Assembly: GCF_001570605.1 (NCBI RefSeq)
Contig: NZ_BBXG01000011.1
Coordinates: forward strand, 62,001 to 126,000
Reading direction: 5' to 3'
Length of the DNA stretch: 64,000 nucleotides
Source: Herbidospora cretacea
GTDB taxonomy: Bacteria; Actinomycetota; Actinomycetes; Streptosporangiales; Streptosporangiaceae
The translations under genes and the position numbers were made by a program. Positions 8,842-13,927 of the stretch are shown in pieces (the stretch's first letter is position 1; every line of letters begins with the position of its first letter). The notes beneath the pieces are model-generated. The model had not been told where the DNA came from and did not search any database. It saw only the letters and a list, made by a program, of their open reading frames with translations.

Positions 8842-10350
8842 CTATTCGCTCGCGCCGAGCTTTTCGAGGATGAGGGCGCGGGCGCGGCCGGCGTCGGCCT
8901 TGCCGCGGCTGGCCTTCATGACACCGCCGACCAGGGCGCCGACGGCGGCGATCTTGCCGCCGCGGATCTTGTCGGCCGCGTCGGCGTTGTCGGCGATGAC
9001 CTGGTCGATGATGGCCGAGAGCTCGCCCTCGTCGTTGACGATCTTCAGGCCGCGGGCCTCGACGACCTCGTCGGGCGAGCCCTCACCGGCGAGCACGCCT
9101 TCGAGGACCTGGCGGGCCAGCTTGTCGTTGAGCGCGCCCGACTTCACCAGCTCGGTCACCCGCGCGATCTGCGCCGGGCTGATCGGCAGCTCGGCCAGGG
9201 AGACGCCGTTCTCGTTGGCGCGGCGGGCCAGCTCGCCCATCCACCACTTGCGCGCGTCGGCCGCCGGGGCCCCGGCCTCGACCGTGGCCTCGACCAGGCC
9301 GAACGCGTCGGCGTTGTGCATGGCGGCCATGTCGAGGTCGCTGACCCCCCACTCGGCCTGCAGCCGCGCGCGGCGGACCGACGGCAGCTCGGGCAGCTCG
9401 GCCTTGAGCTGCGCGACCCACGCCGGGTCGGGCGCGATCGGGACCAGGTCGGGCTCGGGGAAGTAGCGGTAGTCCTGCGCCTCCTCCTTCGAGCGGCCGG
9501 AGGTGGTCAGGCCGGTGTCCTCGTGGAAGTGGCGGGTCTCCTGGATGATCCGGCCGCCCCCGGCCAGGATCGCGGCCTGCCGCTCGATCTCCCCGCGCAC
9601 CGACCGCTCGACGCTGCGGAAGGAGTTGACGTTCTTGGTCTCGGTACGGGTGCCCCACTCGGTGGAGCCGCGCGGCATCAGCGAGACGTTGACGTCGCAG
9701 CGCATCGAACCCTGGTCCATCCGGACATCCGAGACACCGAGGGCGCGCATGACCTCGCGCAGCTCGGTCGCGTAGGCGCGGGCGACCTCGGGGGCCAGCC
9801 GGTCGGTGCCCTCGATGGGCTTGGTGACGATCTCGACGAGCGGGATGCCGGCCCGGTTGTAGTCGACGATCGAGTGGTCGGCGCCCTGGATGCGCCCGGT
9901 CGCGCCACCGACGTGGGTCGACTTGCCGGTGTCCTCCTCCAGGTGGACGCGCTCGATCTCGATCCGCACGGTCTTGCCCTCGACGGTGATGTCGAGGTAG
10001 CCGTCGAAGCAGAGAGGCTCGTCGTACTGGCTGATCTGGTAGTTCTTCGGCATGTCCGGATAGAAGTAGTTCTTCCGGGCGAACCTGCACCACTCGGCGA
10101 TCGAGCAGTTGAGCGCGAGACCGATGCGGATGGTCGACTCGATCGCCGCCGCGTTGGCGACGGGGAGCGCGCCGGGGAAGGCCAGGCAGGTCGGGCAGAC
10201 GTGGGTGTTCGGCGGAGCGCCGAAGGTCGTCGGGCAGCCGCAGAACATCTTCGAGTGGGTGCCGAGTTCGACGTGGGTCTCCAGGCCGAGCACCGGCTCG
10301 AACCTCTCCAACGCCTCGTCGTACGGCATGAGTGTCGGCGTGTCAGCCAT
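8842..10350 (-). CDS. gatB: Asp/Glu-tRNA(Asn/Gln) amidotransferase subunit B
   Basis: The 502-residue GatB subunit binds misacylated tRNA and carries out the ATP-dependent activation step that converts Glu-tRNA(Gln) or Asp-tRNA(Asn) to the amide form. The N-terminus has the family signature [20 protein letters not shown] with the zinc-ligand cysteines CGCP and CPTC. The YqeY-like tail domain is at the C-terminus. ATG 10350 lies inside the end of the upstream gene (8-bp overlap), so the gene is translationally coupled to the inserted ATPase/Toprim-like cassette rather than to gatA. Length is normal. Identity is certain. Confidence 0.98.
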
Positions 10351-10981
10351 GCTGGTAACCCAGTCCTTCCAGAGCTTTGATCATGTCGGCCCACCACTGC
10401 CGGAAGGACGGCACCTTCTTCAGCACGGCGATATCAGCCGCTTCGGCCATATTGATGTAGAAATCCCGCATAACGCCGGTCTTGCCAGGGTTCATCCCAG
10501 CGTCGTTCTTGAGCAGAGCCGCCAGGAGAGCCTTGGGGTCGGCACACCGCTCCACACCCTCCCCCACCGGGATGTCGGTCTTCGGTCTGCGCAGGCACAG
10601 GACCGTCGACAGCGCGGCGACATCGGCGAGAATCCACGCCTCCGTCTCCCGGATCGGGACCACCGTGACCATCGGCTCGGGTGTGCCGATCGCCTCCCAG
10701 GCCTCCCGCATTCGCCGGATCACCTCGTCGGACTTCGACGCCGGGGCGCCGTCGTGGTGATAGAGGACCACGTCGTAGGTGCCGCGCTCAGCCTCGAGTG
10801 CCTTGATCACACTGTCGGGGTGCTGGTTGCCCGCCCGGGTCAGGCTGCGGATGTCCTGGACCTCTCGGCACGCCGGGAAGTTCTCGATGACCAGGATCTC
10901 CAGAGCCCGGCGCAGCAGGATCGGGAGAAACCAATCATCGGTGGGACCCTCACGGACGGGGACACAACTGACGCTTCTCAC
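10343..10981 (-). CDS. Toprim/DUF4276-like protein paired with an AAA ATPase, inside gatCAB
   Basis: A 212-residue cytosolic protein. Its N-terminus, [11 protein letters not shown], matches the Glu-Gly-x-Thr-(Asp/Glu) first motif of Toprim-fold nucleases such as DUF4276 and RloB; HHDG (about 75-78) and [14 protein letters not shown] (about 107-120) fit the later acidic motifs. GTG 10981 overlaps the ATPase stop by four bases (GTGA), and its own stop overlaps gatB by eight, so all are co-translated. ATPase plus Toprim-like pairs are common in antiphage modules (OLD-like, PARIS-like, RloA/B-like); that role here is inference. Family assignment from motifs is moderate, and the function could be other nucleic-acid metabolism. 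Confidence 0.66.
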
Positions 10982-12105
10982 CCGACCGGCTCCTCGATTC
11001 CGGCCCGGAACCGATCGAGCTCGGAGTCGGTGACACGAGCCCATCGCTCGTTTTCGACAGCGGCCGGACCGCCCTCGTCACGTAGTCGCCGCACCCTGGT
11101 GACCCTGCTCGGAACACCGTTTTCGATGATCGTGGTCATGTCGAAATAGGCGATGTTCCGAGGCGGCACGACGTCGAGGACCACTGGCGAATGACTGGTG
11201 AAGATCACCTGCCGGTCCCCGTCGAGTTCCTGCGCGATGCCGAGCAGTTGGCGCAGCCGGTCGGGAAACACCCCGTTCTCCGGCTCCTCGATGGCCACCA
11301 GGCCGGTGTCGTGCAGAGCGGCGAGTACCGCGAGCATGCGGAGAGTGCCGTCTGAGGCCAGTTCAGCGCCAATCCGGGCGTGGTATTGGCTGGAGAACTC
11401 GATGCGCACGTCACGCCGGGCTTCATCGACGACGACGTCGAAACCGGTCACCTCACGGACCAGCCCCACGAGCCGCATGCTGATCTCTTGGAGCCCAGCC
11501 CCCCGGGGGAACTTGACGCCCGACTCGATCGCCAATCTTCGGAGGAAGTTGGGGAGGTTCCGGCCGCTCTGTTCGAGTAGCGACCCGCCCCCGACCTGGC
11601 TCGGCAGACGCAAGGCGCCAGCTTCGAGATGCAAGATGGTGATATTGCGAAGTTCGCGCCAGATCATCCGCGCGAAAGCGAAGCGCGTCTTGGGTTCCCT
11701 GGGACCGAACATCGTGAAATCCATCTCGATGTCCGCCCAACGTCCTCCGTGGTCGGAGCCTTCGACTCGTTCGCTCTCGACGACGATGCCTTCCAGCCCG
11801 TCGTCCTGCAGACCCCACGCGAACACGACTTCATAGCGGGCGCTCTGGTGGAACCTGACCGAGAACCTCATTCGGTCGACGACTCCGCCGTCACCGGTCT
11901 GCCGGAACAGACCACGCGCGTCACCACGTGTGAGTGCGACCGCGCTTTCCATGCCCCTGGTCACCGCAGCGGAGAGAAACGACAGAGCGTCCAGAAGATT
12001 GGATTTGCCGCTCGCGTTGGTGCCGATGAGGACGAGGAAGGGCGGCACGTCGAGCGCGAAGTTCTCGAACGACTTGAAGCCGTCGATCTCGATGCGAGTG
12101 ATCAT
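10978..12105 (-). CDS. AAA_21/RecF-like ABC-type ATPase, inside gatCAB
   Basis: A 375-residue SMC/OLD-type ATPase: ITRIEIDGFKSFENF start, Walker A GTNASGKS (28-35), an ABC-signature-like SDGTLR, Walker B LVAIEEPENG and an H-loop FTSHSP. There is no long coiled coil and no fused Toprim domain; the partner is the next gene. ATG 12105 has GGAAGGAGGG upstream and starts 32 bases after gatA. Codon use is looser than in gatA and gatB, with AGA, TTG and GAA codons visible around 11530-11660, a sign of separate origin. Likely a nucleotide-gated sensor/effector controller, probably defensive; this is inferred from pairing and family. Confidence 0.82.
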   Translation of the reverse strand: MITRIEIDGFKSFENFALDVPPFLVLIGTNASGKSNLLDALSFLSAAVTRGMESAVALTRGDARGLFRQTGDGGVVDRMRFSVRFHQSARYEVVFAWGLQDDGLEGIVVESERVEGSDHGGRWADIEMDFTMFGPREPKTRFAFARMIWRELRNITILHLEAGALRLPSQVGGGSLLEQSGRNLPNFLRRLAIESGVKFPRGAGLQEISMRLVGLVREVTGFDVVVDEARRDVRIEFSSQYHARIGAELASDGTLRMLAVLAALHDTGLVAIEEPENGVFPDRLRQLLGIAQELDGDRQVIFTSHSPVVLDVVPPRNIAYFDMTTIIENGVPSRVTRVRRLRDEGGPAAVENERWARVTDSELDRFRAGIEEPVG

Positions 12106-12137: not shown

Positions 12138-13631
12138 CTACAGGGCCGGGGCCTTGGACAGCAGCGGCCCGCCCCACCGGGACTCGAACGCGCGCTCCAC
12201 CGCGGCGCCGACGCGGTAACACCGGTCGTCACCAAGAACGGGCGCCATGATCTGCAGACCGACCGGCAGCCCGTCTTCGTCAGCCAGACCACACGGCACC
12301 GACAGCGCCGCGTTCCCCGCCAGGTTCGACGGAATGGTGCACAGGTCGGCCAGGTACATGGCCATCGGGTCGTCGGCCCGCTCTCCGATCGGGAACGCCG
12401 TCGTCGGCGTCGTCGGCGAGATCAGCACGTCCACGTGCTGGAACGCGGCGTCGAAGTCACGGGAGATCAGCGTGCGGACCTTCTGCGCCGACCCGTAGTA
12501 GGCGTCGTAGTAGCCGGAGGAGAGCGCGTAGGTCCCGAGCATGATGCGCCGCTTGACCTCGGGCCCGAACCCGGCCGCCCGGGTCAGCGCCATGACCTCT
12601 TCGGCCGAGCGCGTGCCGTCGTCGCCCACCCGCAGCCCGTAGCGCATCGCGTCGAACCGGGCGAGGTTCGACGAGCACTCCGACGGGGCGATCAGGTAGT
12701 AGGCGGGCAGCGCGTAGGTGAACGAGGGACACGACACCTCGACGACCTTGGCCCCCAGCGATTCGAGCAGCTCGACGGCCTCCTGGAACCGGGCGAGAAC
12801 GCCGGGCTGGTAGCCGTCGCCGCCGAACTCCTTGACCACGCCGACGGTCAGCCCGGCGACGTCGCCCTGCCGGGCCGCCTCGACCACAGACGGAACCGGC
12901 TGGTCGATCGAGGTCGAGTCCATCGGGTCGTGGCCGGAGAAGGCCTCGTGGAGAAGGGCCGCGTCCATGACGTTGCGGGCGAAGGGCCCGGGGGTGTCGA
13001 GCGAGGACGCGAACGCGATCAGCCCGTAGCGGGACGAACCGCCATAGGTCGGCTTCATGCCGACGATGCCGGTCACCGCGGCGGGCTGGCGGATGGATCC
13101 GCCGGTGTCCGTGCCGGTGGAGAGGGGTGCCTCGTAGGCGGCCACGGAAGCCGAGGCGCCGCCCGAGGAGCCGCCGGGGATCCGGGTCAGGTCCCAGGGG
13201 TTGTGGGTGGGGCCGTAGGCCGAGTTCTCGGTGGACGAGCCCATCGCGAACTCGTCGAGGTTGGTCTTGCCCAGGATGACCAGCCCGGCCTCGCGCAGCC
13301 GGCGCGTCACCGTCGCGTCGTAGGGCGGACGCCAGCCTTCGAGGATCTTCGACCCGGCCGTGGTCGGCATGTCCTTCGTGGTGAAGACGTCCTTGTGGGC
13401 GATCGGCACTCCGGCCAGCGGGCCCAGCTCCTCGCCGGCGGCCCGGCGGGCGTCGACAGCGGCGGCCTGGGCGAGCGCGGCTTCGGCCCCGACGTGCAGG
13501 AACGCGTGGACCCGGTCCTCCACGGCGGCGATCCGGTCGAGGTGGGCCTGCGCCACCTCGACGGCGGAGACCTCGCCGGAGGCGATCAGGGAACCCAGCT
13601 CGGCGGCGGTCTTCTTGATCAGCTCGCTCAC
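12138..13631 (-). CDS. gatA: Asp/Glu-tRNA(Asn/Gln) amidotransferase subunit A
   Basis: The 497-residue amidase subunit releases ammonia from glutamine for GatB. The Ser-cis-Ser-Lys catalytic set is complete: Lys80 in VPIAHKDVF, Ser155 in PGGSSGGAS and the nucleophile Ser179 in TDTGGSIRQ. The ATG overlaps the gatC stop by four bases (ATGA), normal coupling. What is odd is the downstream side: gatB does not follow directly but is displaced by a 1.8-kb ATPase/Toprim-like cassette. Length and motifs are typical of a housekeeping enzyme. Confidence 0.98.
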
Positions 13632-13927
13632 GCCTCCTCCCCGAGGATGCGGGGCACCCGGAAGCGGTCGTCCTCGACGGCGGGAGCGCCGGAAAGGGCC
13701 TGCTCCGGAGTGAGGCTGGGGGCGACGACGTCAGGCCGGAACACGTTGGTCAGCGGCAGCGCGTGGGAGGACGGCGGGATGTCGGCGGTGGCGACCTCCG
13801 CGACGCGGGCGACCGCGCCGACGATCTGGTCGAGCTGGGCGGCGAAGTGGTCGAGTTCCTCGTCGGCCAGCGCCAGCCGGGACAGCCGGGCCAGGTGAGC
13901 GACCTCTTCGCGGGTTATGGCAGACAT
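13628..13927 (-). CDS. gatC: Asp/Glu-tRNA(Asn/Gln) amidotransferase subunit C
   Basis: The 99-residue small subunit wraps around GatA and stabilises the GatA-GatB interface. The family start [23 protein letters not shown] is clear, and residues around [13 protein letters not shown] match the GatC C-terminal half. It is the first gene of the operon gatC-gatA-ATPase-Toprim-gatB. The Shine-Dalgarno sequence is weak (AGGAA too far upstream). The 96-bp gap before it, shared with the end of the second GGDEF-EAL gene, should hold the operon promoter; no clear element was identified. Confidence 0.97.

Follow-up and report, generated by a model that had tools for sequence, protein, structure and literature searches.

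The stretch analysed here, 64,000 nucleotides of Herbidospora cretacea DNA (the window), carries a two-gene cassette between gatA and gatB of the gatCAB operon, on which these soil actinobacteria depend for protein synthesis. We propose that this cassette is a polymorphic defence locus similar to the candidate system HEC-01, which is exchanged by homologous recombination via the flanking gatA and gatB as arms, with the ATPase encoded by the first gene (A) acting as sensor and the product of the second gene (D) as effector. We put the probability of this reading at about 0.62. The interval between gatA and gatB is called the slot in the following; L, G and g codes denote loci, genomes and genera, and the window belongs to genus g1. 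The features of the window are:

13628..13927, minus strand: gatC (Pfam GatC, 2.4e-20), with a 4-bp overlap with gatA
12138..13631, minus strand: gatA, left arm of the slot (Pfam Amidase, 1.3e-158)
10978..12105, minus strand: A, ABC-type ATPase of 375 amino acids, HEC-01A-like, type I allele (AAA_21, 4e-25; PADLOC HEC-01A PDLC04184, 2.2e-80)
11992..12105, minus strand: constant 5' segment of A, amino acids 1-38 including Walker A, candidate left crossover zone (first 30 codons 97% identical to L065 at the nucleotide level)
11476..11991, minus strand: hypervariable central module of A, about amino acids 39-210, candidate sensor, with approximate boundaries (block nucleotide identity to L065; synonymous divergence per segment)
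10978..10981, minus strand: GTGA overlap of the A stop and the D start (from the sequence)
10343..10981, minus strand: D, DUF4276 protein of 212 amino acids, HEC-01B-like, candidate effector (PADLOC HEC-01B PDLC04210, 1.9e-42; DUF4276, 5e-11, with a longer reading)
10364..10370, minus strand: Shine-Dalgarno-like GGAAGGA for gatB, within the last codons of D (from the sequence)
10343..10350, minus strand: 8-bp overlap of D and gatB (from the sequence)
8842..10350, minus strand: gatB, right arm of the slot (GatB_N, 1.3e-111; GatB_Yqey, 4.6e-43)

The order on the minus strand is gatC, gatA, A, D, gatB. The original prediction had described such a cassette inside gatCAB, on one strand and joined by GTGA and 8-bp overlaps, and the sequence and the Pfam matches bear this out. 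D most likely starts at GTG 10981 rather than at ATG 11044 of the longest open reading frame, because this start gives the GTGA overlap with the stop of A and an overlap of 4 bp or 1 bp is usual among homologous loci (60 of the 66 D pieces listed). The Pfam match to DUF4276 was obtained with the longer reading of 233 amino acids. A contains the ABC motifs GTNASGKSN (Walker A), ASDGT, EEPENG and TSHSP (alignment A1), and its Pfam matches are ATPase-type families and DUF2813. Between 8700 and 14300 neither a sigma-70-like promoter on the gene strand nor a terminator-like site was found, which hints weakly at transcription of gatB through the cassette.

For comparison, 140 further genomes of this GTDB family supplied the region upstream of gatB, giving 141 slots with the window. 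Besides the window they comprise 138 gatB rows out of the 149 others among the matches listed (150 of 290 matching genomes; 11 listed rows lie outside the 141), and L196 and L197, which were chosen via a match in the ATPase search and bring a small bias towards occupied slots. Seven loci (L226-L232) were added via a match to the D profile and stand outside the 141. The 141 intervals fall into 57 empty (<60 bp), 20 intermediate and 64 full slots (1.7-3.8 kb; one of them a tandem). A and D were found in the same order and on the same strand in all 64 full slots; the arrangement is therefore not due to chance, and mis-assembly as its cause is ruled out by the agreement of the 64 slots.

The D profile matched strongly in 72 of 297 genomes of the family: the 64 full-slot genomes, the truncated slot L084 and the seven separately fetched genomes, in all cases inside the slot. 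In the coordinate check, 65 of 65 strong matches from 64 genomes lay within it, and the window and the seven genomes were checked apart. Ten further family genomes showed weaker D matches only (9e-16 to 1e-20). No gat gene is present in 13 stretches of 4-9 kb, which cover nine of these ten genomes and second copies from four slot-bearing genomes (G274 and the second copy of G216 were not in the fetched set); an HEC-01A-like ATPase lies near the D gene in 12 of them, and the thirteenth is cut by the contig end. Outside the family, seven genomes matched D weakly (394 genomes of the class), with no gat genes in the fetched 2-4 kb. The profile searches score part of the first-look candidates, and absences are accordingly of limited sensitivity. 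The 47 slot ATPases placed in a tree were separated from 16 non-slot ones with 100/100 support; the 47 are 40 of the 65 slot ATPases and seven new ones, with L222, L018, L019, L219, L220 and short pieces left out. As far as sequence can tell, the slot lineage is thus one clade with one address, the gatA-gatB junction, in the genomes searched. A general defence hotspot is ruled out by the presence of the same pair in all full slots; an unrelated gene on the opposite strand was seen in the added locus L230 alone. At this locus (L230:4400-6150, G104) about 1.7 kb with this gene, whose product looks secreted, lies between D and gatB.

The slot ATPases (65) form two deep clades, type I (n = 22, including the window) and type II (n = 43), which are about 30-40% identical. 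D shows the same two types, with a support for type I of only 75 in the D tree, and no mixed A-D pair occurs in the 45 slot rows compared, in which the tandem L092 is not included. Both types are present within genera (type I and II: 3 and 3 in g1, 6 and 7 in g99, 2 and 5 in g4, 1 and 1 in g102), and they alternate among species with 96-99% identical GatA and GatB. L093 (type II) and L098 (type I) share 98.9% identity in GatAB, compared with 31% in A and 27.8% in D; the window (type I) and L061 (type II) are 98.4% identical in GatAB and 34.1% in A. On the protein tree of GatA+GatB (141 rows), the five slot states require 41 changes. For approximately unbiased (AU) tests, gatA+gatB DNA trees were calculated without the first 15 codons of gatB. 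At least five type changes are required in g99 (13 genomes), where type I as one clade is rejected (AU p 4.9e-7), and two in g1 (six pair-bearing genomes; AU p 8.8e-4). Type I of g99 itself consists of two sublineages with 45-48% identity in A (L086 versus the others).

The edges of the cassette fit exchange at defined positions. In g99 the identity of the first 15 bp of gatB is 0.98 in same-type pairs and 0.39 in different-type pairs (0 of 1000 permutations). From bp 15 of gatB onward this difference is gone, and none is seen in 250-bp windows of gatA and upstream. The gatB edge is alike in g1 and extends there into bp 15-30. The start of A (MITRIEIDGFKSF; first ~45 bp) is nearly the same DNA across types in g99 and g102 and shows several base differences in g1. 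We infer crossovers at the end of gatA or the start of A and at the conserved start of gatB. The alleles as such appear to be old, because the synonymous divergence (dS) between the window and L065 is 1.03 in A and 0.87 in D, well above the 0.23 of gatB. Among 178 same-genus pairs of the same type, dS of A is more than twice that of gatB (or saturated) in 49; the dS counts for A exclude L086, L179 and the tandem L092, and those for D exclude D genes of unusual length. The pair L088/L113, with a dS of 0.17 in A and D and 0.33 in gatB, is by this measure a whole-cassette transfer. The ratio of nonsynonymous (dN) to synonymous divergence is 0.05-0.33 for both genes in 16 chosen pairs, which indicates purifying selection.

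In g1 and in type II of g99, divergence is concentrated in the middle of A. In 30-codon blocks of the window and L065, nucleotide identity is 45-69% over amino acids 31-210 and 71-87% further on. In g99, 20 of 21 type II pairs are 0.57-0.67 identical at the nucleotide level in the centre (about amino acids 39-216), the exception being L088/L113; the same 20 pairs reach at least 0.94 in the first 38 codons, at least 0.90 in the C-terminal part and 0.88-0.97 in gatB. In A of the g99 type II alleles, the median dS rises from 0.08 at the N end to 1.1-1.2 in the centre and falls back to 0.20 at the C end. Raised dN alone is ruled out as the cause of the variable centre, since dS is raised too; this speaks for recombination or an old polymorphism in addition to any selection at the amino-acid level.

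By its sequence, the A-D pair is a member of the HEC-01 candidate defence system. The HEC-01A models were matched by 31 of 31 A rows and the HEC-01B models by 31 of 31 D rows, and HEC-01 as described in PADLOC-DB 2.0.0 likewise consists of an ATPase gene followed by an overlapping DUF4276 gene. The slot pair differs from it by the fixed gatA-gatB address, the monophyletic lineage, the two allele types and the loss of a second Asp in D. We take the name HEC-01 to stand for Hma-embedded candidate, which is another context than gatCAB; the neighbours of the window pair are gatA and gatB instead of Hma. Embedding in Hma is not known to be a requirement for the HEC-01 gene pair. The two-gene defence module of the original prediction can, with these matches, be upheld as a candidate antiphage system. 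Two other systems were rejected: MADS (mad3), because the MAD3 equivalog score is 116 bits against a cut-off of 420, and Gabija, because A has only 375 amino acids and D and gat genes as neighbours, in contrast to GajA with its own Toprim domain and the GajB helicase.

A also matches the AriA models of the PARIS system (4e-26), and HEC-01A scores far better. PARIS resembles the slot pair in combining an ATPase (AriA) with a small effector (AriB), which in the slot is only putative. It differs in the effector, as D is a DUF4276 protein and no AriB is found among its 13 PADLOC hits. AriB is a DUF4435 protein; no DUF4435 was found in 118 genomes of the class, the genome of the window included. 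In PARIS, AriA holds AriB, a Toprim tRNase, and frees it on a phage trigger (PMC11455837; PMC12409363).

By analogy with PARIS, A may serve as sensor and D as effector. The pair would have one home in this actinobacterial family, the gatA-gatB junction, at which its types would be swapped by homologous recombination, so that the cassette would need no mobility gene. gatB would be transcribed through the cassette and would have its ribosome-binding site in the tail of D. A, with constant ABC lobes and a variable centre, would sense a phage product via this centre and hold or license D. On a trigger, D would halt the cell, probably as a nuclease or a nuclease-derived toxin, in the manner of AriA/AriB. 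Phage-driven selection would maintain several alleles, and a cost of carriage would account for the frequent loss. The position in the slot can be explained without a function in tRNA amidation, because the essential flanks give all relatives the same recombination arms.

The nearest precedent in concept is the enterobacterial immigration control region, where restriction genes vary in the manner of cassettes. It has variable defence genes between conserved anchors and exists in an empty form (PMC12707154, which cites Sibley and Raleigh 2004). The slot differs from it in that both anchors belong to the same operon, which serves an essential step, only one gene pair is inserted, and this pair overlaps the anchor gatB. 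In type I restriction, the specificity domains of HsdS are shuffled, with a variable module between constant segments usable as recombination arms; in the slot, such a module lies inside an ABC ATPase. A wider idea, which we consider unlikely at present, is a single polymorphic innate-immune locus of the whole family with a swappable sensor, placed in an essential operon of translation and comparable to the major histocompatibility complex or HsdS. Its ABC lobes and effector would be constant, several allele types would coexist, and species would exchange them via the essential genes as homology arms common to all. D, with an active site that would be altered in the slot lineage, may in that case act on translation, e.g., on tRNA charged via GatCAB, and GatCAB may be its antidote or a partner under guard.

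Mobile elements and islands are commonly regarded as the vehicles of defence genes. The slot pair seems to follow another mode: a defence pair that lacks its own mobility gene, is bound to a single essential operon and spreads through ordinary homologous recombination. With its dozens of natural alleles in near-identical flanks, it can be tested directly what HEC-01 ATPases sense and whether phage selection maintains diversity at an immune locus. For annotators it follows that gatCAB is often interrupted in this family. In the open-licence PMC literature no paper on DUF4276, none joining gatA/gatB with defence, and no description of the gatCAB address, the alternating types, the scars or the variable module was found.

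Several observations weigh against the proposed defence locus, and part of them concern D. In non-slot relatives of D, an E, a D and the motif HRDxD are invariant (14 rows of alignment A4). Among 72 rows of slot D, E11 is present in 65, D15 in 67, H75 in 66 and D77 in 60. Two residues after D77, none of the 71 slot rows that have a letter at this position carries an Asp, versus all 19 such non-slot rows, and D77 is also lost in 11 of the 71, some of which are possibly alignment shifts. Slot D thus lacks the second Asp of the DxD-like motif of its relatives and does not carry the complete catalytic set (E and DxD) of a Toprim/OLD-like nuclease. The profile of slot D aligned strongly with that of non-slot D (99.6%, 8e-24). 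Against 26 OLD-type TOPRIM sequences, HHalign gave a probability of 3.5% for non-slot D and 6.2% for the combined alignment, both at the short EGxSD motif only, and 8.1% for slot D at a different stretch; the controls GatA and GatB gave 0.1-1.2%. Since only a motif or a short stretch aligned, we do not claim a Toprim nuclease, and the identity of D as a nuclease is doubtful. Non-slot D was also compared with the ATPase alignment as a control; this gave 97% with a match in the C-terminal columns, which we put down to the fused A-D frames (L086, L179) within that alignment. No fold was obtained with AlphaFold2 for D (predicted local distance difference test, pLDDT, 39.8; alignment A3, 3 rows) or A (40.7; A5, 3 rows), and the D profile found nothing credible among PDB sequences. 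HEC-01 pairs at other loci of the same family (L234-L245, L028) keep HRDxD in D. The D proteins of L158, L106, L119, L111 and L131 (g16, g92, g44) lack the His and mostly also the Asp of H-x-D, a motif retained by most other slot D proteins; for this decay, changed function or an alignment shift are possible.

The remaining points on the same side concern exchange and selection. Type II is the only type in the 23 slots of the clade g6/g44/g92/g16, and swapping is therefore not universal. In g1 a small excess among same-type pairs (up to 0.019; 58/500, the lowest p for 6 rows) is also seen in several windows upstream, so that this genus cannot decide on a sharp edge and the edge rests on g99. 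Many old events with later erosion would give the same edge pattern as crossovers. A dS of A clearly below that of gatB occurs in one of the 178 same-genus same-type pairs (one of 1032 same-type pairs overall), and recent whole-cassette transfer is accordingly shown once. A clear variable centre of A is seen in g1 and in type II of g99, whereas type I of g99 shows it less strongly and g6 hardly at all; dS in the centre is near saturation, and the alignment there is uncertain. In the truncated slot L084 (G127:C43), D is largely retained (profile positions 40-225) and little of A is left; loss thus does not always strike D first. A search of 50,697 phage records found no relative, the IMG/VR viral contigs yielded none for the slot profile and one weak match for the non-slot profile, and no paper testing HEC-01 was found among the open-licence PMC titles listed. 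Taken over phage, plasmid and viral-contig searches, no convincing mobile carrier was found; the matches are one weak viral, one Nonomuraea and one Shinella record. The Nonomuraea record (L272, NZ_LT559118.1), which has 11.85 Mb, is labelled as a plasmid in PLSDB without annotation and is probably a chromosome.

The alternation of types can also be explained by an ancient tandem, type II followed by type I, at the base of the family, with differential loss in each lineage and no swapping between species. One slot, L092 (g34; G039:C24:16427-26926), indeed carries gatA, a type II A-D pair, a type I A-D pair and gatB, which speaks for it; deletions are common, and both types are found across the family. 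The tandem is present in just one of 64 full slots, though, and would have to persist through many recent splits between species about 97-99% identical in GatAB. The two g99 type I sublineages do not fit it either, and dS makes the cassettes of L088/L113 younger than the adjoining gatB, which requires transfer. We regard this explanation as rather improbable.

Homologous exchange of a defence pair also has to be weighed against a housekeeping role, in which A-D would regulate or repair the amidotransferase or its tRNAs, and codon use bears on this. The GC content at third codon positions (GC3) is 0.789 in A and 0.825 in D, versus 0.909-0.966 in the five neighbouring genes measured. The codon adaptation index is 0.448 and 0.531, versus 0.681-0.832 in the neighbours, which themselves form the reference set and are flattered by it. 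The looser codon use that the original prediction had noted for the ATPase is thus real and extends to D. Odd codon use appears to be mostly a type I trait, because the mean GC3 of the slot ATPases is 0.815 in type I (20 genes) and 0.899 in type II (42 genes); type II alleles elsewhere (mean GC3 0.90 in A) are nearer to host codon use than the window pair. Fixation across the order together with host-like codons, which had been named beforehand as the mark of an old housekeeping function, was not what we found: slot D was found in 72 of the 297 family genomes and the window pair is not host-like. The strict slot location, the translational overlaps, the purifying selection, the D motif unlike that of non-slot relatives and the near-host codon use of many type II alleles would all suit a partner of GatCAB. 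Such a partner is nevertheless quite unlikely, as the pair is absent from 57 and apparently deleted from 16 of the 141 slots that keep gatA and gatB, the allele types are old with a variable centre, type I alleles have a low GC3, and the closest families are defence candidates.

Loss of the candidate defence pair appears to have left traces in the slot. Of 20 intermediate slots, 16 resemble deletion scars: they match the 3' end of full cassettes, and 13 of them also match the 5' part. In L165 the match is confined to the 5' part, and L174, L184 and L185 show no match. Shuffled controls gave any hit in 5 of 200, and scars below ~130 bp (L068, L073, L076, L078, L095, L105) are based on matches of 16-51 bp. 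A Shine-Dalgarno-like 5-mer precedes gatB in most slots of each class (50 of 64 full, 15 of 20 intermediate, 39 of 57 empty; 0.07-0.11 in shuffled sequences, with 0.11 for the full slots), and D overlaps or reaches the start of gatB in 42 of 64 full slots. Selection on gatB translation may set where scars end, and we propose that the scars keep the tail of D because the ribosome-binding site of gatB lies there. Co-translation with gatB, as suggested by the original prediction, agrees with these overlaps and with the Shine-Dalgarno-like motif in D; protection of the cassette against loss, suggested along with it, does not agree with 57 empty and 16 scar-like slots among 141.

D is split by a frameshift in L098 and lacks an internal piece in L109, and the frame of A is open in both. 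A selfish toxin-antitoxin-like pair with D as toxin and A as antitoxin, maintained chiefly through addiction and its location in an essential operon, would account for these two loci and for the overlap with essential gatB, and is still the least probable explanation, as the frequent loss and the diverse centre of A are unexpected for a simple addiction module and L084 retains most of D with A nearly gone. For AriAB, the same architecture is both a toxin-antitoxin and a defence system (PMC11455837). For the defence locus proposed here, the split or shortened D of L098 and L109 and a fusion in L179 fit a partnership of A and D and a toxic D, in few cases so far. In L179 (L179:5969-8005, plus strand; G010:C48) A and D form one open frame of 678 amino acids, and A and a shortened D also share one frame in L086.

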